Shown in pieces: positions 1 to 15,226 of a DNA stretch of 16,978 bases. Origin of the DNA: Thiobacillus sp. (GTDB taxonomy: Bacteria > Pseudomonadota > Gammaproteobacteria > Burkholderiales > Thiobacillaceae); NCBI GenBank assembly GCA_020217265.1, contig JAIWOS010000010.1:1-16978 (forward strand). The letters are read 5' to 3'. Below the pieces are notes generated by a model. It saw only the letters and a program-made list of their open reading frames with translations, had not been told where the DNA came from and did no database searches. The position numbers and the translations under genes were made by a program. Numbering within the stretch: position 1 is the first letter of the stretch; each line of letters starts with the position of its first letter.

Positions 1-1389
1 GATTGCGCGCCCGCCAGCCTCGGAAAAGGCGATCTGCAGGCCGCTGCGGTGGGCGTGCCGGAACAGGGCGGTGCTGACGAGATGGTTGCCATGGACGATG
101 ACCTGGTCGAGCTTGTGTAGGGGAATGCTGGCAAGCGGTTCGCGGCCCCGGCTGACGAGCACACGGTCACCCTCCTTGAGCAACGTGAGCCCCTGTTCGA
201 GAATCACGAGGCTGCGCAGGATGGGCTCGAGCGCAGGGTTTTCTTCAATCCGGACGCAGGCGTCGGGATCGTCGTCGAATTCGGGCGTTTCAGGCAGGGC
301 CGCGAGCGGCGCGCGGCTGGACGCCCAGACCTCTGCGGCGTTCGTGAGCAGTTCGCCCGGGATGTCGTCAGCCACTTGGGGTGCCGCCACCGCGGGGAAT
401 TCTGGCTCGACGTCGGGCGCCTCGGGCGAGGGGGCTGGGGGCGCCGCTTGCTCGATGTGGGCGTAGTGCTTCTTGCTGGGCATGACCCACGGGGCCGCTT
501 CGGGGTCGGCGGGCCGCATCAGGTTGCGGATGAAGTCGACTCCGAGAAAGCTGAAGCCGTCGTCGAAGTGGGTGACGCGGGTCTTTTCTGGCTTGAGCCG
601 GAGCCGCAGGGTGTCGACGACCTCTTGGGTCAGCTCGAGCGCCTGGCGCGCGGTGTCGTGGTCGCGGCAGAGGATGAGGAAGTCGTCGGCGAAACGCACC
701 AGTCTGAGGTTGTGCGCGAGCAGGGCTTCGTCGAAGTCGTCAAGATAAAGATTGGACAACAGCGGTGACAGCGGCGAACCCTGGGGCACGCCCTTGATGA
801 GGAGGCGGGGCTGGCTGCCATCGTGCGGCTGCAGCGTTGCCGCAAGCCAGAGTTCGATGAGCGGCAGCAGCGAGTGGTCCGCGATGGTGCGGCGGATCTT
901 TGCGAGCAGAAGCGCGTGATCGATCTCGTCGAAGAAGGTCTGGATGTCGGCATCGACAACCCATTGGTAGCCTTGGTCGCGATAATGGGCCACCCGTGCC
1001 AGGGCCATGGGAACAGACCGTCCGACACGATATGCGTAGCTGGTTTCCTCGAGGTGTTTGTCGAACAGCGGGCCGAGGACGCGGGCGACGGCGGTCTGCA
1101 GGACGCGGTCGCGCACGGCAGGCACTGCAAGGCGGCGCTCGCTGCCGTCGGGCTTGTCGATGGACAGTCCGCGCAGCGGTAGCGGCCGGTATTCCTTGCG
1201 CTCGACCTGATGCTTGAGGGTGAGCAGGCGGCCGAACACGTTGTGCGCGAAATCGTCGATGCTCTGTCCGTCGACCCCGGGCATGCCGGCATTCTTGCTG
1301 ACCTTCTCCCAGGCGGCGAACAGGTTGCCGGGCTCAATGGCAAGTTCGATGAGCGGAACAGGGGCGGAGTCAGCGGCTGTTTCTGTCAT
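1..1389 (-). CDS. Reverse transcriptase-Cas1 fusion protein (partial, runs off left edge)
   Basis: An open frame of 463 codons runs from ATG (1389-1387) to the window edge without a stop. Residues about 20-290 are a group II intron-like reverse transcriptase: an NAGMPGVDG start motif, DADIQTFFDEID (D146, D148), QGSPLSPLLSN from Q203, the catalytic FADD at 233-236, then a LKPEKT/FLGVDF segment. An acidic, proline-rich linker (about 300-390) follows. From about residue 394 the sequence matches the Cas1 N-terminal beta domain (LLKEGDRVLVSRG, then IPLHKLDQVIVHGN, LVSTALFRHAHRSGLQIAFSEAGG). In known systems such fusions acquire CRISPR spacers, including from RNA, and usually accompany type III loci. 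The Cas1 catalytic domain and any cas2 or array lie outside. No Cas6 domain precedes the RT. The frame stays open upstream, so an ATG at 1482 is an alternative start. No good ribosome site marks either ATG. Confidence 0.9.
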   Translation of the reverse strand, partial: MTETAADSAPVPLIELAIEPGNLFAAWEKVSKNAGMPGVDGQSIDDFAHNVFGRLLTLKHQVERKEYRPLPLRGLSIDKPDGSERRLAVPAVRDRVLQTAVARVLGPLFDKHLEETSYAYRVGRSVPMALARVAHYRDQGYQWVVDADIQTFFDEIDHALLLAKIRRTIADHSLLPLIELWLAATLQPHDGSQPRLLIKGVPQGSPLSPLLSNLYLDDFDEALLAHNLRLVRFADDFLILCRDHDTARQALELTQEVVDTLRLRLKPEKTRVTHFDDGFSFLGVDFIRNLMRPADPEAAPWVMPSKKHYAHIEQAAPPAPSPEAPDVEPEFPAVAAPQVADDIPGELLTNAAEVWASSRAPLAALPETPEFDDDPDACVRIEENPALEPILRSLVILEQGLTLLKEGDRVLVSRGREPLASIPLHKLDQVIVHGNHLVSTALFRHAHRSGLQIAFSEAGGRAI

Positions 1390-1429
1390 GGCCGCAATGT
1401 TGCAGCGCACACGCGGGGCAGGCTTGAAT

Positions 1430-1441
1430 CGCAAGCTTGCG
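1430..1441. repeat. 12-bp perfect palindrome between divergent genes
   Basis: CGCAAGCTTGCG is a perfect palindrome in the 116-bp region between the RT-Cas1 start (1389) and the small gene at 1506. Its position would suit a shared operator, but a palindrome of this size can occur by chance and no promoter is clear beside it. Confidence 0.35.
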
Positions 1442-1505
1442 GTCGCGTGCCAGCGCCATCGCGGCGGCACAATGGGCGCCATCAACACACAACGAGGAGA
1501 CGATC

Positions 1506-1796
1506 ATGTCTTTGTGGAACAGCATTCTTGGTTGGTTCTGGCCGGACGATGACAGCGCGAATACGGACCCGTCGTCCATCGGACAGGACGATGCGTACTG
1601 CACCATCAATCCCGCGACGGGCCTGCCGATGGTCGGCGGCTGCGGTGGCGTGGACGTGGCAGGCAACCCGTTCGGGGTGGACTGGAGCCACCATGCCACT
1701 GACTCATTGAACAACGCCGACTGTTCGTACAGTTCGGATGCAGGCTGTTGGGACAGCAGTTCCTGGAACAGCGGAACGTCTGGCTGGAACGATTGA
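1506..1796 (+). CDS. Small Trp/Ser/Asp-rich hypothetical protein
   Basis: This is a 96-residue protein. The ATG at 1506 is chosen because an AGGAGA ribosome site (1495-1500) sits 5 nt upstream; the in-frame ATG at 1437 lacks one and would add an unlikely Arg/Ala-rich leader. The N-terminus (SLWNSILGWFWP) is hydrophobic and could lie on a membrane surface. The middle holds a recognisable block, INPATGLPMVGG followed by GGVDVAGNPFG, which I recall in other small uncharacterised proteobacterial proteins. The tail is rich in Ser, Trp, Asp and Cys (Cys at about 32, 46, 73 and 81). No enzyme motif is visible and the function is unknown. It is transcribed away from RT-Cas1 and may or may not belong to that locus. 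Confidence 0.7.
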   Translation: MSLWNSILGWFWPDDDSANTDPSSIGQDDAYCTINPATGLPMVGGCGGVDVAGNPFGVDWSHHATDSLNNADCSYSSDAGCWDSSSWNSGTSGWND

Positions 1797-1892
1797 CTGT
1801 CGATGACGACGGCGCTCAGGCGCACATTGTCGGCTCGCCCGCACGCGGTTCGTCCGCGAAGGCATTTTGTGAGGTTCTAGGGAGATAAACGC

Positions 1893-2267
1893 ATGTACGA
1901 AGACCGGACCTTTTCCGTCGTCCAGACCGTATGCATCTGCGACCGCTGCGGGCTGGAGATGCGCCAGGTAGCCCTCGACGGCGAGTGGGAAGAGCGTCTC
2001 ACGGTCGCGTTTCGTGGCGGCTACCATTCCGAATTCGGCGACGGCAACCTCGTCGAACTCGACCTCTGCCAGCACTGCGTGCGCGATCTTCTGGGGCCGT
2101 TCATGCGTATCACCCAAGACGACCCCTTCGAGCCGCGCCACAAGCCGGCCTATGAGGCGCGCCGCGCCTATCAGGACTATCAGCTTCGCGAACAGATGAG
2201 GCGTCCGCGCAGCCTGGTCGACCTCTTCAGAGGTCCGGAGCGGGACCGCGAGAATCCGGTCGACTGA
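1893..2267 (+). CDS. Small protein with paired CxxC motifs, function unknown
   Basis: This 124-residue protein starts at ATG 1893, with an AGGGAG ribosome site about 8 nt upstream. Cys14, Cys16 and Cys19 (CICDRCG) and Cys59 and Cys62 (CQHC) form two cysteine knuckles about 40 residues apart, which suggests a zinc-ribbon-like fold. A ribbon of this kind with an acidic FGDG..VELDLC stretch occurs in uncharacterised bacterial proteins as far as I recall. The C-terminal third (about 80-124) is highly charged and Arg-rich, so nucleic-acid or protein binding is possible but unproven. It lies 96 bp after the previous small gene on the same strand. No signal peptide or membrane segment is visible. 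Confidence 0.72.
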   Translation: MYEDRTFSVVQTVCICDRCGLEMRQVALDGEWEERLTVAFRGGYHSEFGDGNLVELDLCQHCVRDLLGPFMRITQDDPFEPRHKPAYEARRAYQDYQLREQMRRPRSLVDLFRGPERDRENPVD

Positions 2268-2650
2268 TGTTGGCCGGCGAGTCCTGGCCCAGTCCGCCAA
2301 GCGGGGCGTTCCGTCGGCCACGTCGCGGCATTCCTGCGTGATGGCCGCGTGCTGCGGGTTCGAGCTACAGCAGTTGGAATTTCCAACGCCGGATCAGCCG
2401 GGGGGGGAACTGCAAACGGCGGCCGCCGCGAGCTGAATGCCGCCTCTTCTTGGACCCGGGCGACCGATAAAGATGCAGCCGATGATCTCCGTTACAACGT
2501 CGTTGCCGGACGTTGGCCAGGGCGTGGCCAGCTGGCAGATTGAAGCGGCTTGAGCCGGAAATGCCTCGAGAACGAGGCTGTGTCGCACTTGTTGAAGAGT
2601 CTGGAAATAGGCGCGCCCTGCCAAGGCCGATTCCCGGGAGGGATTAGTTA
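2268..2650. other. 383-bp non-coding gap upstream of the HEPN/AAA operon
   Basis: No convincing gene is seen on either strand. The gap holds a 15-bp palindrome (2373-2387), a small hairpin with GCCTCG arms and an AGAA loop (2563-2578), and a short direct repeat TGGCCAG (2514-2520 and 2525-2531). No CRISPR-like repeats occur. The end of the gap carries the ribosome site of the next gene (GGGAGGG around 2636-2642). Confidence 0.6.
2373..2387. repeat. 15-bp palindrome, candidate operator
   Basis: GTTGGAATTTCCAAC has two perfect 7-bp arms around one central base. It lies 263 bp before the HEPN gene, inside non-coding DNA. The size and symmetry suit a dimeric repressor site, but no regulator gene is adjacent and no second copy was noticed. 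Confidence 0.4.
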
Positions 2651-3247
2651 ATGAGTCAGTTGGAAGCCATCGTCAGTTGGACCAAGAAAATCGAGTCGAC
2701 GCTCGAAAGGCAGCTGGGCGCGAAAGGGCGCGGCCTGCACGAGAAGACGAGTTCGGTTGCGCATCGCCTCGACGCAAGCCTGGTGAAACTTCTCAGGCGA
2801 ATTGCGACGATTCGCAACAGATCCATGCACGAAGATGGCTATCAGGTCGAGGACCTCGAGCGCTTCATCAAGGATTGCGACACTGCGCACAGGCAGATTC
2901 TAGCGATCGGAAACGGCAAGGGCTTCAGCGTGGTGCCGGCCGTCTCCGCAGGGCATATCGGCGCCTTCTCGTCTGTGTCTGCCTTCTCGGATTCCGTGAC
3001 CGGGGTGAAGGGGTTCTTGCTGCGTGAATTCGCTTTCCTCATCTCGCCGCTGATGCTGTTGACGACCGGCAAGGTGCTTCTCAGCCGCCTGCTTTCGGTG
3101 TTGCTCGTCGCCATCTTCGTCGGGGTCACGACAGCAACCCTGTCTGCGTTCGTGCTTCACCCGGCAGGCTGGACTTGGCTTTGGATTGTGCTTGGCGCTG
3201 GCGTCTCCGCGCTGCTTGCCTTTCTCCTGTTTGTTTCTGCGTTGTGA
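2651..3247 (+). CDS. HEPN-domain protein with C-terminal membrane anchor
   Basis: This 198-residue protein starts at ATG 2651, about 8 nt after a GGGAGGG ribosome site. Residues 1-88 look like an all-helical HEPN/DUF4145-type domain carrying RNRSMH at 55-60, the R-x4-H catalytic motif of HEPN ribonucleases, followed by EDGY as in many such domains. Residues about 89-125 form a Gly/Ser-rich linker, then three hydrophobic segments (about 126-143, 146-169 and 174-197) end the protein. In the family, HEPN domains often cut RNA in toxin-antitoxin, CRISPR-associated and abortive-infection settings; RNase activity here is inferred. The stop is 5 bp before the AAA+ gene, so the two are probably co-translated and may form a membrane complex. 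A non-catalytic, dimerising HEPN is the main alternative. Confidence 0.75.
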   Translation: MSQLEAIVSWTKKIESTLERQLGAKGRGLHEKTSSVAHRLDASLVKLLRRIATIRNRSMHEDGYQVEDLERFIKDCDTAHRQILAIGNGKGFSVVPAVSAGHIGAFSSVSAFSDSVTGVKGFLLREFAFLISPLMLLTTGKVLLSRLLSVLLVAIFVGVTTATLSAFVLHPAGWTWLWIVLGAGVSALLAFLLFVSAL

Positions 3248-3252
3248 CTGCC

Positions 3253-5361
3253 ATGAAAGACTTGTTTCTGACTGTTCGTTCCACTGCGCTGCCGCAAGCG
3301 CACGTCCTCGTCGGCTTCCTGCTTGCGCTCGGCAACCTCTCACAGGTCTATGGTGGGGGGCGCTCGTTTGCCTCCGCCGAGGGCATCCTCACCGTTCTGG
3401 TGTCCGGATTGGCGATTGTGCTCTTTGTTTTCTCGGGGCAACTCTCTCAGACGCAGTCCTATCTGAGCCGGGCTGCCTGGGTCTTCATCTCGGCGGTGCC
3501 TGTCTGGATCGCATGGGATCTGTACCCGTTCTACGCTGAAGCCGTGGCTCACGACATTGTCGTGAAACAGGCCGGCGAGGGCGCCATGTTCAGGCCAAAC
3601 GAAACCCCGGAATGGTATTCGGTTGCGCTTGGTGCCTACTTCGCTCTGTCAGCGGTTCTTGTCGCCAACCTTGCGTTTGCCGTTTATGTGTCGTTCTTCA
3701 TCTTGTTCAGGGAGGTTTCGGAAGGCATATTGGACATGGGCGGCTTCGATCCAAAAAAGAATGGCGTGGCCGTTTTCGAAATCGTGCGGGACACTTTCGG
3801 TAAGAAGCAACCGGAGCCGGCGCCGTCACCGGTGCAGTCCTCTTCCTACAAGGACCTGGTCACGCGCGACACCGAGGCGCTTCCAGCCCGATTCACGTTC
3901 GACGATCTTGCCGGCCAGGAGGGACTGAAGACTAAGCTCTGGGACGCGGCCCAGGAGTGGAACAACGGCGGCAAGAAGAACGGCAGGAACGGCATCTTCC
4001 TGCACGGCGTGCCAGGCACCGGCAAGACCGCCTTTGCCGAGGCGCTGGCGGGCGAGGTCAGCCTCAGGATCATGAAGGTCAACGTCGGCAGCATTGCGTC
4101 GCGCTGGGTCAACCAGACGACCGAGCAACTGCAGGACATCATCGACTCCGCGCTGCGCCAGGCGCCGTGCGTGCTGTTCCTCGACGAGGTTGAAGCGATC
4201 TTCCCCGACCGCAGCCGCATCGAGCGCGGCGACTCCGAGGAGTCCAAGGTGGTCGGGGGCTTCCTCACGTCCATCGAGAAGCTGCGCGCCGGCAAGGTAC
4301 TGCTCGTCGCGGCGACCAACCACAAGGACCGCGTGGACGCCGCCGTGATCCGCGAGGGACGCTTCGATTTCCATGTCGAAGTGACCGTGCCGGATTTCGA
4401 GGCGCGCAAGGGTCTGGTGGTCAACACGCTCAAGAAGGGGGGCAAAACCGTTGATCCTGTCGTGCTGGATCGCCTCTCTCGCCGGTGGGCCGGCTTCAAC
4501 GTACCGCGCATCCAGGAGGCCACCCGCCGGGCTGCCGGCTTTGCCACGACGAACGTCGTTTCCATGAACGATTTCATGAGCGGCCTGCGCGACGTGCAGG
4601 GCAACAACTCTGGTGTCTCCGAGAACGCGCCCGGGCTGCCCGATCTGTACTTCGATGACGACCTGAAGACCCGCCTGGAGACTCTGGCGGCGACCTTCGC
4701 TAGGTCGTACGAAATCGAAGCAACTGGCGCATCCATCCCGAAAGGTGTGGCCTTCTACGGTCCGCCCGGCACGGGAAAGACGGCTATGGCACAAGCGCTC
4801 GCCAAGTCATCCGGCTGGACGTTCATATCGACCAACGGCAAGGAGATCCTGTCCGATCCGAAGAAGCTCGCGGAAATCCGTCGCAAAGCCTCGGATCTGC
4901 GCCCGGCCATCGTCTTCATCGACGAGGCGGATGACATCTTGGGCGACCGTCGCATGTCCGGCCTAAAGCTCCACACCAACGAACTGCTAGCGACCATCGA
5001 CGGCGCCGGCGAGCCATTGCCGGATGTGGTGTGGATCATCGCCACCAACGATGTCGATAGTCTTGATGACGCCGTGATCCGTCGTTTCCCGGTTAAGATC
5101 GAGCTGCCTGTGCCCAGTGTCGAGGTACTGACCCGCATGATCCACGACTGGGCTGCCAAGCGAGCCGACATCATTCACGGCGAAGTCGAGGAGTGGTCCT
5201 CGAAGGTCGCCCAGGCACTCGATGGCCTGTCCCCGAGCGTGGTGATGGGCACTCTGGATTCTGCTCTAAACAGCGAGGCCGCTGCCAGCGTACTGCGCGG
5301 TGAAGCGATGAGTATCACGCTTGAAGAAGTCCTCAAAGCACGGAGGGAGATGCGGGCATGA
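3253..5361 (+). CDS. Membrane-anchored tandem AAA+ ATPase
   Basis: This 702-residue protein has four predicted N-terminal membrane helices (about 17-34, 44-62, 75-94 and 121-153), a linker (155-212) and two classical AAA domains. Domain 1 has Walker A GVPGTGKT (252-259), Walker B ending D311-E312, a sensor-1 AATN and an EGRFD arginine-finger region. Domain 2 has Walker A GPPGTGKT (503-510), Walker B D557-E558, a sensor-1 IATN and an IRRFP segment. Both look catalytically complete. There is no HExxH zinc protease, so this is not FtsH; a remodelling or unfolding role at the membrane is inferred. ATG 3253 is chosen because it falls just after the HEPN stop; ATG 3175 would add 26 residues overlapping that gene. 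The stop overlaps the next start (ATGA, 5358-5361). Confidence 0.85.
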   Translation: MKDLFLTVRSTALPQAHVLVGFLLALGNLSQVYGGGRSFASAEGILTVLVSGLAIVLFVFSGQLSQTQSYLSRAAWVFISAVPVWIAWDLYPFYAEAVAHDIVVKQAGEGAMFRPNETPEWYSVALGAYFALSAVLVANLAFAVYVSFFILFREVSEGILDMGGFDPKKNGVAVFEIVRDTFGKKQPEPAPSPVQSSSYKDLVTRDTEALPARFTFDDLAGQEGLKTKLWDAAQEWNNGGKKNGRNGIFLHGVPGTGKTAFAEALAGEVSLRIMKVNVGSIASRWVNQTTEQLQDIIDSALRQAPCVLFLDEVEAIFPDRSRIERGDSEESKVVGGFLTSIEKLRAGKVLLVAATNHKDRVDAAVIREGRFDFHVEVTVPDFEARKGLVVNTLKKGGKTVDPVVLDRLSRRWAGFNVPRIQEATRRAAGFATTNVVSMNDFMSGLRDVQGNNSGVSENAPGLPDLYFDDDLKTRLETLAATFARSYEIEATGASIPKGVAFYGPPGTGKTAMAQALAKSSGWTFISTNGKEILSDPKKLAEIRRKASDLRPAIVFIDEADDILGDRRMSGLKLHTNELLATIDGAGEPLPDVVWIIATNDVDSLDDAVIRRFPVKIELPVPSVEVLTRMIHDWAAKRADIIHGEVEEWSSKVAQALDGLSPSVVMGTLDSALNSEAAASVLRGEAMSITLEEVLKARREMRA

Positions 5362-5861
5362 AGAAGGCCTCGATCTCGGTCGTCCTGCTGGCGATGTCGA
5401 TGTCTCTTTCGTCCCCCTACGCTGCAGCCAGCATGATCGATTGGCTGTTTGTGAAGCCGGTCGAAAAGGCTATCGACGAGGAGGTGGTGGCAAGGGCCAT
5501 TGTTCGCGCCGTCATGAATCCAGGCACCGCGAAAAACGGCGGCAAAGCCAAAACGAGGCAAGCCGTGCCCGTTGCAGGGCGTGTGGAGGAAGGCGATTAC
5601 CGCCGCTTGCCGTTGACCGGCCGGCTTCGTTTCCCTGTGCCGAAGGACACGGACCTGGCTGCCCTGGAAGTCGGCCCGGCCGGCGGTTACCTGGATCGTT
5701 TCGGCAGCGAGTGGATTCCGTATCGCACGAGCGGACGCTTGGTTGCGTGGCGAATGAATCTTTCAGACCGTGGCCGTCTCCGTCTTTCCGGCATCGCCGA
5801 CGGCACGGGGTTCATCCTGGTCGACAGGGAGGGGAAGAAGATCACGGTCTCCGACTCGTAA
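5358..5861 (+). CDS. Exported protein, possible polymorphic-toxin-like C-terminus
   Basis: This 167-residue protein starts at ATG 5358, overlaps the AAA+ stop by 4 bp, and has a strong GGAGGGAG site just upstream. Residues 1-24 are a typical Sec signal peptide (KK, a hydrophobic core, then AAA), with no lipobox, so the product should be periplasmic or secreted. Residues about 25-75 include a basic KNGGKAKTR stretch. Residues about 100-165 contain YLDRFGSEW, then W-x-MNLSDRG and a FILVDREGKK strand. That pattern reminds me of the polymorphic toxin type 17 domain (DxFGxxW ... W-x-V-x-LS-x-x-G ... V-x-x-x-G), but this is from memory. Operon position ties it to the HEPN and AAA+ proteins as a periplasmic partner or effector. 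Function is not assigned. Confidence 0.72.
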   Translation: MKKASISVVLLAMSMSLSSPYAAASMIDWLFVKPVEKAIDEEVVARAIVRAVMNPGTAKNGGKAKTRQAVPVAGRVEEGDYRRLPLTGRLRFPVPKDTDLAALEVGPAGGYLDRFGSEWIPYRTSGRLVAWRMNLSDRGRLRLSGIADGTGFILVDREGKKITVSDS

Positions 5862-6046
5862 CTGCCTGTGTTCGCCTCACGCGCGTATCACCTTCCGAGG
5901 ACAAATGCATATTTCGCGGACGGTAGTACGTGATGGCGATCCTTAGGGAAACGCTGATTTTCACACCCCGTTTTCTCGCATTGGGGTACTCATTTACGAC
6001 TTTAATTGTTGGGAACATCAGTCCCCGGCGGGAACCCGGCCCAGGT

Positions 6047-6073
6047 TTGGCACTCTATGGCTCCGAGTGCTAA
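6047..6073. promoter_or_regulatory. CIRCE element (HrcA operator) upstream of rpoH
   Basis: TTGGCACTC, nine bases, then GAGTGCTAA reproduces the CIRCE consensus (TTAGCACTC-N9-GAGTGCTAA) with one mismatch, and the exact 9-9-9 spacing. HrcA binds this element to repress heat-shock genes such as groESL in many bacteria. It ends 24 bp before the rpoH start codon and covers the likely promoter. Confidence 0.88.
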
Positions 6074-6076
6074 TAT
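6047..6076 (+). promoter_or_regulatory. Predicted sigma-70 promoter of rpoH, overlapped by CIRCE
   Basis: TTGGCA (6047-6052) and TAATAT (6071-6076) are 18 bp apart and resemble -35 and -10 boxes. They fall within or at the edge of the CIRCE arms, so HrcA binding would block RNA polymerase. Transcription would start near 6083, which leaves a very short leader carrying the AAGGGAG ribosome site (6084-6090). Other upstream promoters are possible; no clear sigma-32 promoter was found. Confidence 0.5.
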
Positions 6077-6096
6077 TTGAGTGAAGGGAGTGATGA

Positions 6097-6945
6097 ATGA
6101 TGAATGCAGCCATGACTTTACCCATCCCCGCCGCGTATAGCCTGGACAGCTACATCCAGACCGTGAACCGCTATCCCCTCCTCAGCCAGGAAGACGAGCA
6201 GCGTCTGGCGCGCGACTGGCGCGACAAGCAGGATCTCGAGGCCGCCCGCATGCTGGTGTTGTCGCACCTGCGCGTGGTCGTCAGTGTGGCGCGTCATTAC
6301 CTCGGCTACGGCCTGCCGCATGCCGACCTCATCCAGGAGGGCAACGTGGGCCTGATGAAGGCCGTCAAGCGTTTCGATCCGGATCGCGGCGTGCGCCTGG
6401 TGTCGTTCGCCCTGCACTGGATACGCGCGGAGATTCACGAATACGTGCTGCGCAACTGGCGGCTCGTCAAGGTCGCCACGACCAAGTCGCAGCGCAAGCT
6501 CTTCTTCAACCTGCGCAGCCTCAAGCAGTCACTCGCCGCGCTGACGCTGAAGGAAGCCGACGCGGTCGCGAAGGAACTCAATGTTTCGCGGGCGGACGTG
6601 CTGGAGATGGAAACGCGGTTGTCCGGCCACGACCTGTCTATCGACCCGACGATCGACGACGGCGAGGAAGGTTACAGCCCCATCGCCTACCTGGCCAGCC
6701 CGGACGAGAACCCGGCACAGAAGCTGGAGCGCGAGCAGACCGAGCGCCTGCGCCACACCGGCCTTGCCGCCGCGCTGGACAATCTCGACGCGCGCAGTCG
6801 CCGCATCATCGAGGCGCGCTGGCTGAACGAGGGCGAGTCGGCCACCCTGCACGACCTGGCGGCCGAATACGGCGTGTCGGCCGAGCGCATCCGCCAGATC
6901 GAGGCACGCGCCATGCAGAAGATGCGCGCCGCGATTCCGGCCTGA
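6097..6945 (+). CDS. rpoH: RNA polymerase heat-shock sigma factor RpoH (sigma-32)
   Basis: This 282-residue sigma-70-family protein, of normal RpoH length, directs RNA polymerase to heat-shock promoters. Region 2 is visible as HLRVVVSVARHYLGYGLPHADLIQEGNVGLMKAVK-type sequence (about residues 54-90, quoted here only as a family signature) and FDPDRGVRLVSFALHWIRAEI. The diagnostic RpoH box QRKLFFNLR is at 132-140. Region 4 ends with a helix-turn-helix, YGVSAERIRQIEARA, near the C-terminus. ATG 6097 follows AAGGGAG at 6 nt; ATG codons at 6100 and 6112 are also in frame. Upstream lies a CIRCE operator, so HrcA repression is likely in addition to the usual post-transcriptional control of RpoH. The gene converges on the cco cluster and ends at a shared terminator. 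Confidence 0.97.
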   Translation: MMNAAMTLPIPAAYSLDSYIQTVNRYPLLSQEDEQRLARDWRDKQDLEAARMLVLSHLRVVVSVARHYLGYGLPHADLIQEGNVGLMKAVKRFDPDRGVRLVSFALHWIRAEIHEYVLRNWRLVKVATTKSQRKLFFNLRSLKQSLAALTLKEADAVAKELNVSRADVLEMETRLSGHDLSIDPTIDDGEEGYSPIAYLASPDENPAQKLEREQTERLRHTGLAAALDNLDARSRRIIEARWLNEGESATLHDLAAEYGVSAERIRQIEARAMQKMRAAIPA

Positions 6946-6962
6946 TGCCGGTGGCGCATAGC

Positions 6963-6991
6963 AAAAAGCCCCGCAGTTGCGGGGCTTTTTT
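6963..6991. terminator. Bidirectional rho-independent terminator
   Basis: AAAAAGCCCCGC, loop AGTT, then GCGGGGCTTTTTT forms a GC-rich stem flanked by an A-run and a T-run. It can end transcription of rpoH from the left and of the cco/ccoS cluster from the right; both finish within about 20 bp of it. Confidence 0.93.
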
Positions 6992-7007
6992 CATGGCCGA
7001 CGGTACG

Positions 7008-7115
7008 TCAGAAGAACGAGGCGATCAACACGGAAAGGATGCTGATCCACGCCCAGATGATCAGGCCGGTCACCACCACCATCGGGAAGTTCTGGAACGT
7101 CAGAAACTGCTTCAT
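7008..7115 (-). CDS. 35-residue single-helix membrane peptide at the end of the cco cluster
   Basis: ATG (7115-7113) is preceded by an ACGGAG ribosome site about 9 nt away, and a 35-codon frame ends in TGA at 7010-7008. The peptide begins MKQFLTFQNFP and then is almost wholly hydrophobic (VVVTGLIIWAWISILSVLIA), giving one membrane helix with the basic end likely inside. It lies 35 bp after ccoS on the same strand and directly before the terminator, so it looks like the last gene of the operon. Small single-helix subunits such as CcoM and CcoQ are known to stabilise cbb3 oxidases; I do not recognise this sequence as either, and the role is inferred from position only. Confidence 0.65.
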   Translation of the reverse strand: MKQFLTFQNFPMVVVTGLIIWAWISILSVLIASFF

Positions 7116-7150
7116 GCTGTTGTACTCCGTATGTTTAAGTAAATTTTAAT

Positions 7151-7336
7151 TTAATCGTCCCGATCGCTCAAGCGCCGCGTCGGCAGGCGCGGGTCGTCGT
7201 CGTCCATGAGGATGCGTGCGGCCGGCCCTTCGAGGTCGTCGAACTGGCCGCTCTTGATCGACCAGAACACGCCCACCACGATCAGCAGCACGAACACGCC
7301 CGACAGCACCAGCAGAAAGCCCATGATGCCGCTCAT
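7151..7336 (-). CDS. ccoS: Cytochrome oxidase maturation protein, cbb3-type CcoS
   Basis: This 61-residue protein has one N-terminal membrane helix (about 5-26) followed by the CcoS signature FWSIKSGQFDDLEGPAARIL and an acidic DDDDPR tail. CcoS is needed for heme and copper insertion into the cbb3 catalytic subunit CcoN. Length and motif agree with the family. The start codon overlaps the stop of the FixH-like gene by 4 bp (ATGA), so the two are translationally coupled. The usual partner CcoI, a copper-exporting P-type ATPase, is not in this window. Confidence 0.93.
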   Translation of the reverse strand: MSGIMGFLLVLSGVFVLLIVVGVFWSIKSGQFDDLEGPAARILMDDDDPRLPTRRLSDRDD

Positions 7337-8106
7337 GGCACCGTGACCTCACGGCTGCTGTGATACTGCAACGCGCCTTCCCGGCTCAGGCGCAGGTCGA
7401 CGAGCCAGCGCCCGCTCGCGGGCAGCCGCAGTTCGCCCTGGTAGACGCCCGGGGCGGTCATGCGCAGAGGTTCGCTGCGAACCGTCTCGGGCGCGCCGGG
7501 GCGTGACACCTGCAACTCGGCGACCACGCCGGCGACCGGCAAACCCGTGCGGTTCCGCACGCGAACCACGACAGGTCTGACCGGCGCGTCGGCCTCGAAC
7601 CCTTCGGTTTCCACCTGCCAGCCGAGCCGGCTCTCCCGGTGCGTTTCGGACAGTTCAGACGAGACGGCACGGGCAGCGCCTTCGCCATGCGGCACCACCC
7701 CGGAAAAGCCGCTGTGAACCTGACGGCCATTGCCGCCCAGCCACCAGTTGCCCAGCGAAACGGGCAGCCCGGAAGTCGCCACGTAGAGAAATCCGGCGTT
7801 GAGAAACACCAGTCCGACGAAAAATGCGATCAGGAGTTTTGGCACCCAGTGCAGGCGCGTTCCGCGCCGCTGGAACTGGGAAATGGCGTAAAGCACCAGC
7901 GCGGCGGCGAGAAAGACGGAAATGTGGATGGCGGCAACGTCGAGTCCTGGCCAGCGCCCGACAATCAGCGCGAAATAGGCCACCAGCGGGATCAGCCCCG
8001 CGAGCGCGGCGCGCAGCATCGGCGGCAGGCCGCGCAGGAGTCCGCCCGCGGCGTACAGGACGAGCACCGCCGCCAGACCGCCGAACAGACTTGCAAATGT
8101 ATTCAC
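7333..8106 (-). CDS. FixH-like membrane protein of the cbb3 assembly cluster
   Basis: This 257-residue protein starts at GTG (8106-8104), overlapping the ccoG stop as GTGA. Four hydrophobic segments (about 4-25, 31-50, 57-77 and 88-110) precede a periplasmic-type region (115-257). The latter has the beta-strand pattern of FixH: PVRPVVVRVRNRTGLPVAG, then MTAPGVYQGELRLPASGRWLVDLRL. FixH/CcoH proteins are membrane factors for cbb3 assembly. Typical FixH has one N-terminal helix and is about 150-170 residues, so the three extra helices are unusual. Position between ccoG and ccoS strongly supports an assembly role, while the family label rests mainly on the C-terminal half. Confidence 0.75.
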   Translation of the reverse strand: MNTFASLFGGLAAVLVLYAAGGLLRGLPPMLRAALAGLIPLVAYFALIVGRWPGLDVAAIHISVFLAAALVLYAISQFQRRGTRLHWVPKLLIAFFVGLVFLNAGFLYVATSGLPVSLGNWWLGGNGRQVHSGFSGVVPHGEGAARAVSSELSETHRESRLGWQVETEGFEADAPVRPVVVRVRNRTGLPVAGVVAELQVSRPGAPETVRSEPLRMTAPGVYQGELRLPASGRWLVDLRLSREGALQYHSSREVTVP

Positions 8107-9623
8107 GAGGTTTGTCCCGGGCTATCGAATCGCACGTCCTCGCTGCGCGCATCGGCGGGCCGCGTGAGGGGCGTGATCGTCAGAGTGAAATGCCGGATGC
8201 GCGCCGCCTCGGCAGGCGTCAGACGCACGCTGGCCTGTACTAGACCGCTGTGCCCGGGCTTGATTCCGATTTCGGCAAAATTTCCCAAATCGAGCGCATG
8301 CGCGGGCACGCCTGAAGCCGTGATCCGGTAGCGTTCCTCGACACCGGACTTGTTGGTGATGCGGATCTGGTAGCGATTGCGGATGTCGCCATTGGACAGC
8401 ACGACGTAGAGCGGCTGCCGGATCTGGTTGACGGCGCGGTCGAAGCTGCTGCGGGTGGCAATGCTGTAGCCCAGATAGCCCGTCATCAGCAGCAAGGCTA
8501 CGCCGTAGCCGACGATTTTGAGGCGCTTCCAGTGCAGCCTGGGTGGCGCCGGCTGGGGCGAGGCGAGGTTCTTTTCGGAGTCGTAGCGGATCAGGCCGCG
8601 CGGGAAGCCGAAGGAATCCATGATGGTGTTGCAGGCGTCGATGCACAGGCCGCAGGAGATGCACTTGTACTGCAGGCCGTCGCGGATATCGATGCCCACC
8701 GGGCACACCTGTACGCACAATCCGCAATCGACACAATCTCCGTAGCCCTGCGCGCGACGTTCGCCGAGCGCACGTTCGGCCGTCGACAGCTTGACGTGGC
8801 GGCGTTCGCCCGCCGGGCCGGTACCGGCTTCTGCGCGTCGACGCTCGACCGGGATGCCGCGGCCCGCGCGCACTACCGCGCGCCCCGCCGTGCCTTCGCC
8901 GCGGCGCGCATCGTAATGCACCGCGAGCGTCTCCGGTTCGTACATCACGCTCTGGAAGCGGCCGTAGGGGCAGACGTAGGTGCATACCTGCTCGCGCATG
9001 AGGCCCGCGGCGACGTAGGTCGACAGGGTGAGCACGGCCGCCGTGATATAGGCCGCCGGCGCGGCCTGGCCGGTGAAGAAATCCATAACCAGCTGTGGCG
9101 CGTAGGCAAAGTAGGCGACGAAGGTCAACGCCGTCCAGAACGAGGCGAGCAGCCACAAGGCGTGGGTGGCGCCCAGCTTGAGCAATTTCTCGCGGTCCCA
9201 GGGCTGGCGGTAGAGTCGCACGCGCGCCGGCCGTTCACCCTGGATGACGCGCTCGATCCAGATGAAGAAATCCGTCCACAGCGTCTGGAAGCAGAAATAG
9301 CCGCAGAACGCGCGGCCCACGAGGCCGGTGACGAAAAACAGAAGTATGGCGGCGATAAACAGCAAAAGCGCCAGCCAAATCACGTCCTGCGGATACACCG
9401 TCAGGCCGAAAATCAGGAAGCGCCGCCCGGGCAGGTCGAACAGCACGGCCTGCGCTGGCGCATCGGGACGCGCCCACGGCAACCAGGGCAACAGGAAGTA
9501 GATCGCGTAGGCCACCACCAGCACCGAGGTCTTGAAGCGGCGGAACGTGCCCTTCACCGAACGGGTGAATATCGGTATGCGCTTCTGGTAAAGCGCGAGC
9601 TGGTCTTCCAAACCTGATTGCAT
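8103..9623 (-). CDS. ccoG: Cytochrome c oxidase accessory protein CcoG (FixG/RdxA)
   Basis: This 506-residue membrane ferredoxin-like protein acts in cbb3 biogenesis, where CcoG reduces copper for insertion. Membrane helices occur in the N-terminal half with CGYFCFQTLW and CTYVCPYGRFQ motifs. Two 4Fe-4S motifs follow: CVDCGLCVQVCP (C297, C300, C303, C307) and CISCGLCIDAC about 30 residues later. A further membrane helix and an Ig-like C-terminal region (LSNGDIRNRYQIRITNK) complete the usual layout. ATG 9623 is preferred; a TTG at 9653 would lie in the preceding hairpin. The loop before the first cluster (about residues 236-290) is longer and more Arg/Gly-rich than I expect for CcoG. It overlaps the next gene by 4 bp. 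Confidence 0.95.
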   Translation of the reverse strand: MQSGLEDQLALYQKRIPIFTRSVKGTFRRFKTSVLVVAYAIYFLLPWLPWARPDAPAQAVLFDLPGRRFLIFGLTVYPQDVIWLALLLFIAAILLFFVTGLVGRAFCGYFCFQTLWTDFFIWIERVIQGERPARVRLYRQPWDREKLLKLGATHALWLLASFWTALTFVAYFAYAPQLVMDFFTGQAAPAAYITAAVLTLSTYVAAGLMREQVCTYVCPYGRFQSVMYEPETLAVHYDARRGEGTAGRAVVRAGRGIPVERRRAEAGTGPAGERRHVKLSTAERALGERRAQGYGDCVDCGLCVQVCPVGIDIRDGLQYKCISCGLCIDACNTIMDSFGFPRGLIRYDSEKNLASPQPAPPRLHWKRLKIVGYGVALLLMTGYLGYSIATRSSFDRAVNQIRQPLYVVLSNGDIRNRYQIRITNKSGVEERYRITASGVPAHALDLGNFAEIGIKPGHSGLVQASVRLTPAEAARIRHFTLTITPLTRPADARSEDVRFDSPGQTS

Positions 9624-9651
9624 GGTGTACTCGGTGAAGAACGCAGGATGC

Positions 9652-9675
9652 AAAAGCCCCCGCGAGCGGGGGCTT
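9652..9675 (-). terminator. Hairpin with U-run between ccoP and ccoG
   Basis: Read on the minus strand, AAGCCCCCGC, loop TC, then GCGGGGGCTTTT forms a 10-bp stem with a short T-run. It sits 22 bp after the ccoP stop and only 28 bp before the ccoG ATG. It should end or weaken ccoNOQP transcription; read-through would supply ccoG and the genes after it. Confidence 0.8.
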
Positions 9676-9697
9676 GGCGATTCAGTTCAGCCGCGGC

Positions 9698-10618
9698 TCA
9701 CTGGCCGCCGCCCAGTTCATGGACGTAGACCGTCAGAACCTTGATCTGTTCGGGCGATAGCCGCCCCGCCCAGGCCGGCATGACCCCCCGGTTGAGGCCG
9801 TTGGTAATGACGCCGCGTATGGCCGCCACCTTGCCGGCGGCCGAATCGGCATCGGGCACGTCGGCCCACAGCCAGACCTTGTCGGTGAGGTTCGGTGCGC
9901 CGATGTCCTTGCGGCCCTTGGCGTCGACGCCATGGCAGTAGTAGCACGCCGCCGTCTCGCTGTGGAACAGCGCATTGCCGGCGCTGGCCTTGGCGGCATC
10001 GTGTCCGATGCCCGACAGGCTGGCGACGTAGTTGGCAAGCTGGTCGATCTGCTCGGCGGACAGCACCTCGCCGAAGGTCGGCATGTAGCCGCGACGGCCA
10101 TTCATGAGGGTTTCGTGGATTTTGTCGTAGGTGCCGCCGTACAGCCAGTCGTCATCGGTGAGGTTGGGGAAAAAGCCGATCTTCCCCTGGCCGCCGGCCT
10201 GGTGGCAGGGCGCACAGTTGTCCGAGAACAGCGCCTTGCCGGCAGACAGGATGAAGCCGTTCATCTCCGGGTCCTTGGCGATCTGCGCGTAGGACATCGA
10301 CGCGATCTTGTCGAAGTAGGGCTTCTGCTCGGCGCTGGCCTCATTGAGCTTTTCCATCAGGAGCGCGCGTGTATTCCAGCTGTGCGTCTTGGTTTCGCCG
10401 GCGTCGTTGACGTAGGTGATATCGGACACGCCGCCCAGCCAGCCTTTGCCGAACGGCCAGGACGGATAGATGGTCCAGTAAACGATGGCGAACACCACCG
10501 TGACGTAGAAGGTGTAAACCCACCAGGTCGGCAGCGGATTGTTGTACTCCTGCAGGTCACCGTCCCAGGCGTGACCGGTGGTCTGTACGGTGTGGGATTG
10601 TAGTTTTTGCTCGCTCAT
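9698..10618 (-). CDS. ccoP: cbb3-type cytochrome c oxidase subunit III (diheme c, CcoP)
   Basis: This 306-residue protein has one N-terminal membrane helix (about 32-50, after the CcoP-typical EYNNPLPTWW) and two periplasmic cytochrome c domains. Heme sites are CAPCH (C135, C138, H139) and CYYCH (C225, C228, H229), with likely distal ligands M179 (GYMPTFG) and M280 (GVMPAW). CcoP passes electrons from soluble cytochromes to CcoO and CcoN. Its ATG overlaps the ccoQ stop (ATGA), and the intrinsic hairpin follows its stop. Length and motifs are normal. Confidence 0.97.
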   Translation of the reverse strand: MSEQKLQSHTVQTTGHAWDGDLQEYNNPLPTWWVYTFYVTVVFAIVYWTIYPSWPFGKGWLGGVSDITYVNDAGETKTHSWNTRALLMEKLNEASAEQKPYFDKIASMSYAQIAKDPEMNGFILSAGKALFSDNCAPCHQAGGQGKIGFFPNLTDDDWLYGGTYDKIHETLMNGRRGYMPTFGEVLSAEQIDQLANYVASLSGIGHDAAKASAGNALFHSETAACYYCHGVDAKGRKDIGAPNLTDKVWLWADVPDADSAAGKVAAIRGVITNGLNRGVMPAWAGRLSPEQIKVLTVYVHELGGGQ

Positions 10619-10812
10619 TGCTTGTCTTTCGTGTCGGCTTTGTCGCCCGGCTGATCGTCGAGAAACGGTATGTCGCGGTAGGACTCGAGTTTCTCGCTCC
10701 GCTTCTTGCTACCGTAGGCGTAGATCACGATGCCGATAAAGGTGACGAAAAAAATGATCAGCGCGAGGGGCTTGGTGTTTTCCGGTTTCGAAAACCACAT
10801 CAACCATTCCAT
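10615..10812 (-). CDS. ccoQ: cbb3-type oxidase subunit CcoQ (FixQ)
   Basis: This 65-residue protein has one membrane helix (about 15-33: PLALIIFFVTFIGIVIYAYG) followed by a KKRSEKLESYRDIPFLDD cytoplasmic tail, the typical CcoQ pattern. CcoQ stabilises the assembled cbb3 complex. It lies between ccoO and ccoP in the canonical NOQP order and overlaps ccoP by 4 bp. A G-rich stretch (GGGGGCGG) just before ATG 10812 may serve as ribosome site. Confidence 0.93.
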   Translation of the reverse strand: MEWLMWFSKPENTKPLALIIFFVTFIGIVIYAYGSKKRSEKLESYRDIPFLDDQPGDKADTKDKQ

Positions 10813-10833
10813 TCTGCCGCCCCCGCACGTCGC

Positions 10834-11580
10834 TTAACGGTTGTCGACGAACGCGTCGTCCTTGTACTTGCTGAAATCGACCATGGTGCCGAGAACCTGC
10901 AGGTACGCAACGAGCGCATCCATTTCGGAGATGCCGGAGCGATCGCCGTCGTAGTTGCCGAAATTGGCCTGCTCGACCAGGTTCTTCTGCGCGTCGGGAA
11001 TGTGCAGCTGCTTGGCCACGGTTTCGCCGAACTTGGCGACGTTGGCCTTGTATTCCGCGTCCGTCAAAGAGTAAGGCACACCCACCTTGCGCAGCGCCTT
11101 CATGCGATCCGCCACGTCGGAGATATCAAGCGGGGTGGACAAGAGCCAGGGATAGTTCGGCATCACCGACTCGGGCACCATCGAGCGCGGCGCGATCAAG
11201 TGCTGCACGTGCCATTCATTCGAGTATTTGCCGCCGACGCGGGCGAGGTCGGGGCCGGTGCGCTTGGAGCCCCACTGGAAGGGGTGGTCGTACTGCGATT
11301 CGGCCGCCAGCGAATAATGGCCGTAGCGCAGCTTTTCGTCGCGGAACGGACGGATCATCTGCGAGTGGCACAGGTAGCAGCCTTCGCGCTGGTAGATGTC
11401 GCGGCCGCGCTGTTCCAGCGGCGTGTAGGGACGCACGCCGTCGACTTTTTCAATGGTCTTGTCGATGAAGAACAGCGGCGCGATTTCCACCAGGCCGCCG
11501 ACGCTGATCGCCAGCATGGTCAACACGGCCAGGAGGCCGATGTTGGTTTCGATCCATTCGTGTTTGAAATTGAGGTTCAT
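10834..11580 (-). CDS. ccoO: cbb3-type cytochrome c oxidase subunit II (monoheme c, CcoO)
   Basis: This 248-residue membrane-anchored cytochrome c has an N-terminal helix (about 13-36, then EIAPLFF), the heme motif CYLCH (C68, C71, H72) with the family-typical SQMIRPF after it, [18 protein letters not shown], and a likely heme ligand M140 in SVMPNYPWL. It transfers electrons from CcoP to the heme-copper centre of CcoN. It lies 17 bp after ccoN and 21 bp before ccoQ, so the four structural genes form one operon. The length is within the range seen for CcoO. Confidence 0.97.
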
Positions 11581-11597
11581 TTAAGGCGGTCTCCGGC

Positions 11598-13052
11598 TCA
11601 GGCGTGGGCCAGCTTGGCGGCCAGTTTGGCTTCCAGCGCGGCGGCTTCCTGTTTGCCCTGACGGATGGTCATGAACATGTTGTAGGTCATCAGCACGGCC
11701 CCGGTCAGGAAGAACATCCCGCCGATGGCGCGCATTGCGTAGAAGGGATGCATCGCTGCCACCGATTCGACGAACGAATACTGCAGGTTGCCGAACTCGT
11801 CGAATGCGCGCCACATCAGGCCCTGGGTAATGCCGGAGATCCACATCGCGACGATGTACAGCACGATGCCGAGGGTGGCGAGCCAGAAGTGCACTTCAAC
11901 CAGTTTGTTCGAATAGATCTTGGTATCCCACAGCTTGGGGATCATGTGGTAGAGCGAGCCGAAGGAAATCATCGCCACCCAGCCCAGCGCACCGGAGTGC
12001 ACGTGACCGACCGTCCAGTCGGTGTAGTGCGAGAGCGCGTTCACTTCCTTCAGCGACATCATCGGGCCTTCGAAGGTCGACATGCCGTAGAACGACAGCG
12101 CGACAATCATGAAGCGCATCACCGGGTCGGTGCGCAGCTTGTCCCATGCGCCGGAGAGCGTCATGATGCCGTTGATCATGCCGCCCCACGAGGGCATCAA
12201 GAGCAGGATCGAGAACGCGGCGGCGAGCGACGAGGTCCAGTCGGGCAGCGCGGTCCAGTGCAGGTGGTGGGCGCCGACCCACATGTACATGAAGCCCAGC
12301 GCCCAGAAGTGGACGATCGACAGACGGTAGGAATAGATCGGGCGACCGGCCTGCTTGGGCACGAAGTAGTACATCATGCCGAGGAAGGCGGCGGTGAGGA
12401 AGAAGCCGACCGCGTTATGGCCGTACCACCACTGCGTCATCGCATCCTGCGTGCCGGCGAACAGGCTGTACGACTTCATCGAGAACAGGTCGATCGGCAT
12501 CGCCAGGTTGTTGAAGGTGTGCAGCAGTGCCGTAGCCAGGATGAATGCCAGATAGAACCAGTTGGCCACGTAGATATGCGGCTGCTTGCGGCGCATGATG
12601 GTGCCGACGAACAGGATCAGGTAGGTCACCCAGACCACCTCGATCAGGAGATCGATCGGCCATTCCATTTCGGCGTATTCGCGCGACTGGGTGTAGCCCA
12701 GCACGTAGCTGATGTCGGCCAGCAGCACGGCAGCCATCCAGCCCCAGAAGGTGAAACTGGCCATGCCGTCGGAAATCAGGCGGGTCTGGCAGGTGCGCTG
12801 GACGACGTAATAGGAAGTTGCAAAGAGCGCGGAGCCCCCGAAGCCGAAAATCACCGAGGTGGTGTGAACCGGGCGGAAGCGCCCGAACGAGAAGTAGGGG
12901 CTGTCAAAGTTGAGGAAGGGCCAAGCCAGTTCGGAAGCGATATACACCCCGACGAACATGCCGATGACCGCCCAGACGAGCGACATGACGGCGAATTTCT
13001 TGACGATATCGAAGTTGTACTGCTCTACGCCGGAATATGTGGTTACCGCCAT
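11598..13052 (-). CDS. ccoN: cbb3-type cytochrome c oxidase subunit I (CcoN)
   Basis: This 484-residue heme-copper oxidase subunit reduces oxygen to water with high affinity and pumps protons. Many hydrophobic helices (12 expected) fill the chain. Conserved residues are in place: low-spin heme ligands H63 and H352, high-spin heme ligand H350, CuB ligands H212, H262 and H263, the cross-linked tyrosine at Y256 (helix VII, typical of C-family oxidases) and E328 in STFEGP. Assignments rest on a constant +5 offset to the well-studied Pseudomonas stutzeri numbering as I recall it. ATG 13052 is chosen because AGGAG lies 6 nt upstream; the frame stays open to 13121. A promoter probably lies at 13145-13174. 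Confidence 0.98.
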
Positions 13053-13116
13053 CGACCGCTCCTGAATGTCTCGAAACAGCACGGCCGCCGCAAAACGCCG
13101 GCAGCCGCCCTCGAAC

Positions 13117-13126
13117 AGCATATGCT
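13117..13126. repeat. 10-bp palindrome in the ccoN leader
   Basis: AGCATATGCT is a perfect palindrome just downstream of the predicted ccoN start of transcription. It could be an operator or chance. No FNR-type TTGAT-N4-ATCAA box was seen in this leader. Confidence 0.3.
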
Positions 13127-13144
13127 TATATTAAGAACTGCGGG

Positions 13145-13174
13145 ATTATATTCCAGCCGGTCATGCAGCCGCAA
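13145..13174 (-). promoter_or_regulatory. Predicted promoter of ccoNOQP
   Basis: On the minus strand a perfect -10 box TATAAT (13150-13145) follows TTGCGG (13174-13169) at 18 bp. The -35 box is poor (TTG conserved), which suits an activated promoter. The -35 region lies in a small inverted repeat, CCGCA-ATA-TGCGG (13169-13181), that could bind a regulator. The leader to ccoN would be about 85 nt. Confidence 0.45.
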
Positions 13175-13188
13175 TATGCGGCCCTGAT

Positions 13189-13782
13189 TCAGGACGCCCC
13201 GAGCAACTTCTTCAAGTCCTGGGCAATGGCATCCGGCGGACTGCCATAGGGAACCAGCAAGCGCAAACGCCCTTCCGGATCATAAACATACGTGCCGGCA
13301 CTGTGGTCGATGAGATAGTCGTCCGGCCCCTTCTGGGCAGTTTTCTGGTAGACCACCTTGTATTCTTTTGCCAACACTTTGAGCGAGGCTTCGTCGGTGT
13401 ACATTCCCAGAAAGCCCGGATTGAATGCCGGCACGAACTGGCGCAGCAAGTCCGGCGTGTCGCGCGCGGGGTCGACCGTCACGAAGATGACCTGCACCCG
13501 GGATGCCTTTGGCCCCAGGAGTTTCAGCGCCGCCGCGAAATCGGCCAGCGTGGTCGGACACACGTCGGGGCAGTGCGTGTAACCGAAGAACACCGCGACC
13601 GCCTTGCCCCGGAAGTCGGCCAGCGTGCGCACCCGGCCGTTATGGTCGGTCAGCCGGAAGTCGCGCGCGAACGGCGCGCCCGTGATATCGGTCGCCAGGA
13701 ACTTCTGTTCGGGCGGCGCCGGCTGGCAGCCCGCGAGCACGCCGCCCGCAGCGATCGCGAGCGCAAACAGGATCGCCTTCAC
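13189..13782 (-). CDS. SCO1/SenC-type copper chaperone lipoprotein
   Basis: This 197-residue thioredoxin-fold protein helps load copper into cytochrome oxidase. It has a lipoprotein signal peptide with lipobox LAGC (C19), the copper motif CPDVC (C71, C75) after FFGYTH, and the partner histidine H160 in IDHSAGTYVYD; all three copper ligands are present. It starts with GTG (13782-13780), overlapping the Rrf2 stop by 4 bp, so both are probably made from one transcript. It sits between the aa3-assembly genes and the cbb3 operon and could serve either oxidase. Confidence 0.95.
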   Translation of the reverse strand: MKAILFALAIAAGGVLAGCQPAPPEQKFLATDITGAPFARDFRLTDHNGRVRTLADFRGKAVAVFFGYTHCPDVCPTTLADFAAALKLLGPKASRVQVIFVTVDPARDTPDLLRQFVPAFNPGFLGMYTDEASLKVLAKEYKVVYQKTAQKGPDDYLIDHSAGTYVYDPEGRLRLLVPYGSPPDAIAQDLKKLLGAS

Positions 13783-14243: not shown

Positions 14244-14258
14244 CTCGCGCCCCTGTTG

Positions 14259-14295
14259 TTCAGACTGATTTCAATATAAAACAATACCGTCTGAA
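14259..14295. repeat. Inverted repeat upstream of the Rrf2 gene
   Basis: TTCAGAC (14259-14265) and GTCTGAA (14289-14295) are perfect inverted 7-bp arms with a 23-bp A+T-rich spacer; the arm centres are 30 bp apart, about three helical turns. The site lies 15 bp before the Rrf2 start codon, in an 84-bp gap whose low G+C contrasts with the neighbours. It may be an operator or a leader hairpin. Confidence 0.45.
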
Positions 14296-14327
14296 TATCC
14301 AGATAGCCCGTCAAATCACCATAGAAA

Positions 14328-15224: not shown

Positions 15225-15226
15225 GC

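Follow-up and report, generated by a model that had tools for sequence, protein, structure and literature searches.

A putative membrane HEPN protein, a two-ring AAA+ ATPase and an exported Ntox17-type protein encoded side by side in a Thiobacillus genomic island

Membrane-associated HEPN proteins have been described in three groups, marked by a WP-type transmembrane (TM) domain, an Abi2/SWT1 HEPN after a TM helix, or a zinc ribbon after two TM helices (Anantharaman et al. 2013, PMC3710099). Here, we describe a locus of Thiobacillus sp. (contig JAIWOS010000010.1 of assembly GCA_020217265.1, positions 1 to 16,978; this whole stretch of 16,978 nucleotides is called the window) in which three adjacent genes, together called the module, encode a predicted membrane HEPN protein (gene 1), an ATPase with an N-terminal membrane region and two AAA+ domains (gene 2), and an exported protein with an Ntox17 domain (gene 3). 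As predicted for gene 1, the HEPN domain of the described proteins is cytoplasmic and tied to TM helices, and a stimulus-dependent action on RNA has been proposed for them; unlike the module, the groups appear in the passages that define them without an AAA+ or Ntox17 partner (PMC3710099).

The other two genes also have described relatives. Ntox17 of polymorphic toxins is summarised, in the entry drawn on here, as ‘mostly beta; ExD, H, several charged residues’, with Imm31 as its partner (Zhang et al. 2012, PMC3482391). Gene 3 shares a scaffold with these toxins but, compared with what that entry gives, is free-standing and exported, has lost ExD and H, and has no immunity gene seen beside it. 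Gene 2 resembles the TM-AAA-AAA ATPase of MobH/MPF_T-type conjugation clusters, which also has two AAA+ domains and a hydrophobic N-terminus; whereas that ATPase sits among type IV secretion genes, gene 2 lies in an apparently stand-alone operon with the HEPN and Ntox17 genes. Its identity is 32-44% to the 12 best plasmid matches and 72-73%, over about 520-534 residues, to the ATPases of two loci, L027 and L004. The best PADLOC match of gene 2 (E 2.6e-52) is to the IetA/IteA ATPase of the anti-phage system IetAS. Gene 2 was rejected as an IetA, scoring 170.5 bits against the NCBIfam cut-off of 510 with only the AAA domains matching, and no IetS-like protease gene was found in the window among the neighbours scanned (RT-Cas1, two small open reading frames (ORFs), gene 1, gene 3 and rpoH). 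HepS, a HEPN protein of the Gifsy-1 prophage (PDB 9oij/9oik), matches gene 1 in sequence only at E 0.28. We know of no TM segment or ATPase partner of HepS, and a literature search on HepS with Gifsy-1 and HEPN found no paper.

An original prediction, made from the DNA letters and their translations, had known of no described system with this set of genes. Our searches agree: no Pfam, NCBIfam or PADLOC model names the three-gene set, and a literature search, in which coverage of subscription journals was limited, found no description of it. The parts of the module appear to be of known kinds and their combination new. We tentatively propose, at a probability of about 0.38, that the module is an inner-membrane HEPN effector of mobile-element origin, directed against incoming elements. 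Such a role is favoured because the ATPase is of a conjugation type, a CRISPR gene lies nearby, and one relative of the ATPase has an entry-exclusion gene (EexN) as its neighbour.

The three genes are not chance ORFs, because homologues of all three exist in other sequences: outside the window, gene 1 has 3 matches among database proteins that span most of the gene (47-63% identity), gene 2 has 13 (68-74% in whole-length alignment) and gene 3 has 10 (49-64%). The layout foreseen for them, a 5-bp spacer (3248-3252) between the first two genes and a 4-bp overlap, ATGA (5358-5361), between the last two, is exact in its coordinates (Table 1), and genes 1-3 most likely form one operon.

Gene 1 carries the motif required of HEPN RNases, Rx4-6H with a polar residue after R. 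R55, N56 and H60 are invariant in 21 of 21 aligned relatives, and R55 and H60 are kept in 27 of 28 after the addition of seven more; the original prediction of a membrane protein with an intact R-x4-H HEPN motif, which had named beforehand a lack of conservation at these two residues as its refutation, is borne out. The DUF4145 match of gene 1 falls below the Pfam cut-off. The best-scoring structural neighbours of its predicted model are HEPN proteins, including prophage HepS and the HEPN toxins of MntA-HepT toxin-antitoxin pairs. A hydrophobicity scan places hydrophobic segments at about residues 127-171 and 173-198, read as two TM helices. We infer that gene 1 encodes a membrane-held putative HEPN RNase with its nuclease on the cytoplasmic face. 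Several HEPN relatives stand in other settings: one (L076:7328-7618) lacks R and H and lies on a plasmid that has an ATPase relative about 66 kb away, another (L038:1065-1499) shares a 2078-base E. coli plasmid with a single other annotated gene, and two (L056:4995-5396 and L057:424-837) occur in viral contigs near genes that look, by eye, lysis- or tail-like.

Where might the TM half of gene 1 have come from? A profile of it, built from four gene-1-type proteins (one row, P0003, cut at an earlier site than the others), was compared with 3993 ORFs and matched the small TM proteins whose genes directly precede that of the ATPase in L004 (E 0.0013) and in L027 (E 0.0069), ahead of an unrelated match at 0.24; against the 6889 ORFs of all 85 loci the values were 0.0022, 0.012 and 0.42. 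The match carries a large composition bias, the two hits are not independent of each other, and blastp did not recover the similarity. Neither small TM protein has a HEPN domain. Homology of the TM half to these small TM proteins is thereby weakly shown, though the hits are well placed: L004 and L027 hold the closest ATPase relatives outside the module. The likeness suggests that a HEPN domain was grafted onto such a protein. The small proteins upstream of the ATPase in three plasmid loci (L080:3174-3542, L083:2895-3302 and L034:11223-11570) have in common, by eye, an N-terminal hydrophobic stretch and a Cys pair in what would be their periplasmic part; none was picked up by the TM profile of gene 1.

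Gene 2 is matched twice by PF00004 (E 2.4e-60), and the key Walker A and Walker B residues of both rings are kept in 14 of 14 aligned ATPases, as are sensor 1 and the arginine-finger region of each ring. The expected membrane protein with two complete ATPase domains is hence what was found, with both rings intact. In ring 1, RWV (RYI or RWI in relatives) aligns with FVG, the pore loop of FtsH from the same genome, and at this position ring 2 has a gap in the alignment. In FtsH-type motors the pore loop threads protein. Strong hydrophobic segments lie at residues 38-66 and 122-155 by the scan, with probably two weaker ones by eye, and gene 2 probably has four TM segments. Residues of about 91-122 would then form a periplasmic loop, and the ATPase domains would be cytoplasmic.

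For gene 3, the original prediction of a Sec-exported protein agrees with a Sec-type signal judged by eye, and it had made no mention of the Ntox17 domain (PF15524), which scores 33.3 bits against a gathering cut-off of 25. The fold assignment rests on this Pfam match because the three-dimensional model is poor (mean pLDDT 56.4, no convincing PDB match); a profile search of solved structures came back empty, and PADLOC gave a weak Csx19 match (E 0.003). The two Ntox17 toxins used for comparison, from Variovorax and Pantoea plasmids, both have FEWDVQLS, RDG.H.NV and a terminal TH, and the Pantoea toxin gene is followed by Imm31. Set against these two toxins only, all 11 of the 11 module proteins have AWR in place of EWD and no counterpart of either H, and they keep the scaffold motifs LP.TG, G..DRFG.EW and LS..G. 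Since the ExD and H residues are lost in all 11, gene 3 is probably no active toxin but, most likely, an Ntox17-type protein lacking the residues of the toxin. No Imm31-like gene was seen adjoining it, the next gene read being rpoH. A toxin domain has, it appears, been reused here as a non-toxic exported part. A second pair of ATPase and exported toxin-like protein was seen in genome G004, where a protein with a pre-toxin TG domain, exported and lipoprotein-like by eye (L028:15577-17316, minus strand), is encoded directly after a TM-less ATPase relative.

Table 1. Coordinates of the module, its parts and its surroundings in the window
Feature	Position	Strand	Details
Gene 1	2651..3247	+	198 aa
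HEPN domain	gene 1, residues 1-88		R55-N56-x3-H60
Linker	gene 1, residues 93-116		low model confidence
Long helices with hydrophobic segments	gene 1, residues 119-197
TM half of gene 1	3020..3244	+	residues 124-198; weakly like the small TM protein just upstream of the ATPase (L004, L027)
Gene 2	3253..5361	+	702 aa counted from ATG at 3253; N-terminal membrane region, AAA+ ring 1, AAA+ ring 2
Ring 1 Walker A	4006..4029	+	residues 252-259; Walker B residues 308-312; pore-loop motif residues 283-288
Ring 2 Walker A	4759..4782	+	residues 503-510; Walker B residues 554-558; gap relative to FtsH pore loop
Gene 3	5358..5861	+	167 aa; Sec-type signal residues 1 to ~24 (by eye); Ntox17 residues 81-156, predicted active residues replaced
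RT-Cas1 fusion	1..1488	-	5' part only, cut by contig end
Small INPATGLPM protein	1437..1796	+	start probably ATG ~1506
Island right edge	6022..6097		similarity to relatives resumes at or just before rpoH (6097-6945)

Do the three genes travel together? Co-occurrence was judged from equal size of the longest contig listed for each protein cluster, a measure by which absences are weak. The ATPase and gene 3 co-occur on five contigs (21470, 20035, 6508, 3427 and 3357 bases), which corresponds to 5 of 14 ATPase clusters and 5 of 11 gene 3 clusters, and gene 1 joins them on two (21470 and 6508). Three further gene 3 clusters are on contigs above 3 kb (10225, 6989 and 3134 bases) without an ATPase match of equal size. 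The safe reading would be that the ATPase and gene 3 form the core and that the HEPN protein is the more variable member. The co-occurrence of homologues, which the original prediction had needed, is therefore borne out only in part: it stands for the pair on five contigs and the trio on two, the window's own included, but does not extend to 21 other ATPase loci, where blastp (E up to 0.01) found no HEPN or Ntox17 gene nearby. All three genes were counted at strict thresholds, the genome's own copy being included each time: the ATPase is present in 5 of 117 family genomes, 6 of 399 in the order sample and 2 of 369 in the class sample; HEPN in 1 of 117 and 4 of 399 for family and order; and PF15524 in 1 of 399 of the order sample. 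Viral contigs gave one generic match to the ATPase, two matches to HEPN and none to Ntox17, and phage records gave no match to HEPN or gene 3 at E up to 0.01.

Conjugation type IV secretion clusters often contain an ATPase of this family, a link that the original prediction had not made. The ATPase is matched by 58 plasmid records, of which 11 of the best 12 were examined (H10 and H9 are twins). In 8 of the 10 annotated plasmid loci the ATPase has type IV secretion genes next to it (L034, L035, L036, L037, L077, L080, L082 and L083; L084, without annotation, is excluded from this count), and L081 and L085 have none beside it. Where annotated, the ATPase comes after a VirB6-like and/or before a VirB8-like gene, both named from gene order as the annotation there reads only ‘type IV secretion system protein’; VirB9- and VirB10-family genes follow in 7 of the 8, with TcpQ and PilN/PilO2 further along in several. 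L006, L008 and L027 have the same conjugation context, the VirB names in L006, L008 and most of L027 being read from ORFs by eye and the TrbL and VirB4-type genes of L027 being confirmed by Pfam. The total, to which L004, L005, L007, L028, L040, L041, L043 and L061 are added, is 11 of 21 other ATPase loci beside conjugation genes, partly by eye; 7 of the 10 remaining loci (L081, L085, L005, L007, L040, L041 and L061) have an integrase, transposase, replication or plasmid context by eye. In these counts L042/L077 were taken once as the same plasmid and L029/L044/L004 once as the same contig (equal lengths and positions), L009-L014 and FtsH-type matches were not counted as ATPase relatives, and in unannotated loci the FtsE/FtsX, restriction and integrase names are assignments by eye. 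In one of the eight plasmid cases, L080, the gene right after the ATPase encodes an EexN entry-exclusion lipoprotein. On pKPC_UVA01, whose exclusion study also features an AAA ATPase, the TrbL/VirB6-type gene directly follows the exclusion genes trbK and eex, going by the part of the source that covers them (PMC8923210); the family of gene 2 lies just after such a gene, in a slot near that of trbK and eex as given there, but not identical to it.

In a tree of 30 ATPases, the 14 protein matches, L027 and L004 make up one 100/100 group; the tree is unrooted, with an open base to this group, weak deep forks and several very long branches, and all 14 proteins are labelled ‘module’ though only 5 equal gene 3 in longest-contig size. 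A direction from conjugation to module can thus only be argued from breadth. In the conjugation clusters of Burkholderiales, annotation gives this membrane ATPase no name beyond ‘AAA family ATPase’ or ‘ATP-binding protein’; a literature search gave no description of it.

How, then, might an effector against incoming elements work? What the computation shows is the genes and their domains, the conservation of the HEPN and ATPase motifs, the loss of Ntox17 residues, the kinship of the ATPase with conjugation, and the island setting; from these we infer complex formation, RNase activity, sensing, ATPase control and defence. The control first suggested, in which the ATPase restrains or releases the HEPN nuclease, is likewise a conjecture. 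The module would derive from a conjugative-element gene pair, a small TM protein and a TM-AAA-AAA ATPase, and fusion of a HEPN RNase domain to the small TM protein would hold a nuclease at the cytoplasmic face. With its FtsH-like ring 1 pore loop and its periplasmic loop, the ATPase may remodel the HEPN-TM partner, and the exported Ntox17-type protein, no longer a toxin, may serve as a periplasmic sensor or ligand. An envelope event, such as the arrival of a mating channel or a phage, would alter the ATPase so that the HEPN protein is freed or assembled; it would then cut RNA, and the invader or the cell would be stopped. One count weighs against this proposal: the 21470-base contig has proteins identical to those of the window, and outside the window the co-occurrence falls to four contigs for the pair and one for the trio.

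The alternative that survives best, although we consider it somewhat unlikely, is that the module is a displaced conjugation accessory, in which the ATPase works with its small membrane partner to assemble or clear a mating channel or to give entry exclusion, and the HEPN protein serves the element and not immunity. It draws on the conjugation genes adjoining the ATPase in the eight plasmid loci and in L006, L008 and L027, as well as on the EexN gene of L080. The window itself, however, contains no transfer or type IV secretion genes, a VirB4 of the L027 type was not found in the genome (84.6% complete; the search had no positive control), and the conjugation-cluster ATPase loci have no HEPN or Ntox17 gene by blastp.

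Less probable again is a membrane RNase of the stress or addiction type: the HEPN protein would constantly be removed or held back by the ATPase until loss of the ATPase, or envelope stress, frees the RNase. An exported third gene would be unusual in a toxin-antitoxin pair, and HEPN relatives exist without the ATPase; in its favour are the MntA-HepT toxins among the best neighbours of the predicted gene 1 structure and the proposal, in the part of the HEPN survey that treats membrane forms, that these are stimulus-dependent RNases (Anantharaman et al. 2013, PMC3710099).

Returning to the proposed effector against incoming elements, a more specific form of it, which we regard as improbable, may be called ‘armed entry exclusion’: an exclusion-type membrane machine, taken over from a conjugative element, in which a periplasmic Ntox17-type sensor recognises an arriving mating channel or phage and acts through an AAA+ unfoldase on a tethered HEPN RNase, so that RNA is cleaved where a passive block would otherwise be expected. 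If this held, it would connect HEPN-based immunity with plasmid entry exclusion, subjects so far treated separately.

The module lies in an island between RT-Cas1 and rpoH, and this adjacent CRISPR adaptation gene is in keeping with the defence role first suggested. Its best PADLOC matches are RT and Cas1_IIIb, and it is the sole Cas1 match in the genome. Could the module be ancillary to a neighbouring type III CRISPR system, with the HEPN protein as its effector? In favour of this are RT-Cas1 in the window and, in L004, the position of the related ATPase near Cas6 and a TM-CARF gene, together with the same small INPATGLPM protein as in the window. We judge this very unlikely: genes 1-3 gave no CARF or SAVED match in PADLOC (E up to 1, the weak Csx19 match of gene 3 apart) or in Pfam (for gene 2, among the best 25 of 52 families), CRISPR genes were noticed by eye near only the module and L004 among 22 loci (the others not being scanned for Cas families), and L050, an RT-Cas1 locus of G004, showed no ATPase gene of gene 2's family in the 12 kb read. 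The TM-CARF gene of L004 (1525-2286), between Cas6 and the ATPase, encodes N-terminal TM segments and a CARF domain (PADLOC CARF_2M, E 8.8e-22).

That gene 3 is a secreted Ntox17 toxin which the other genes export or tolerate is scarcely credible: PF15524 does score above its cut-off, the annotation ‘polymorphic toxin type 17’ is given to 4 of 9 plasmid matches, and G004 encodes an exported protein with a pre-toxin domain after an ATPase of 38% identity, but the ExD motif and both H of the two toxins have no counterpart in any module protein and rpoH, not an Imm31-like gene, comes next.

The small INPATGLPM protein between RT-Cas1 and the module occurs in 4 of 60 relatives searched, its own genome included. 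Its relatives lie beside a full RT-Cas1 and a CRISPR-like repeat region (L050:1976-2335), in restriction islands by eye (L051:9416-9670 and L052:7686-8195), and after the ATPase in L004 (5480-5869). The protein bears a faint, sub-threshold resemblance to TraS entry exclusion (E 1.6e-4), and a literature search on INPATGLPM found no description. Between it and gene 1, positions 1893-2267 (plus strand) encode a 124-aa protein with paired Cys motifs by eye and no Pfam family above the cut-off.

Similarity to relatives begins only near rpoH, and the sequence left of about 6022 is therefore taken as the island. The similarity starts at 6022-6030 in 4 of 8 relatives and at 6100-6116 in the other 4. 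By eye, 5 of the 8 have FtsX/FtsE-type genes ahead of rpoH (in frame in 3, inferred in 2), and the remaining 3 have other genes there, marking a variable insertion spot at about 6022. By eye, an HsdM-type gene lies upstream of rpoH in G004, and a recombinase-type gene lies about 1.4 kb off in G011.

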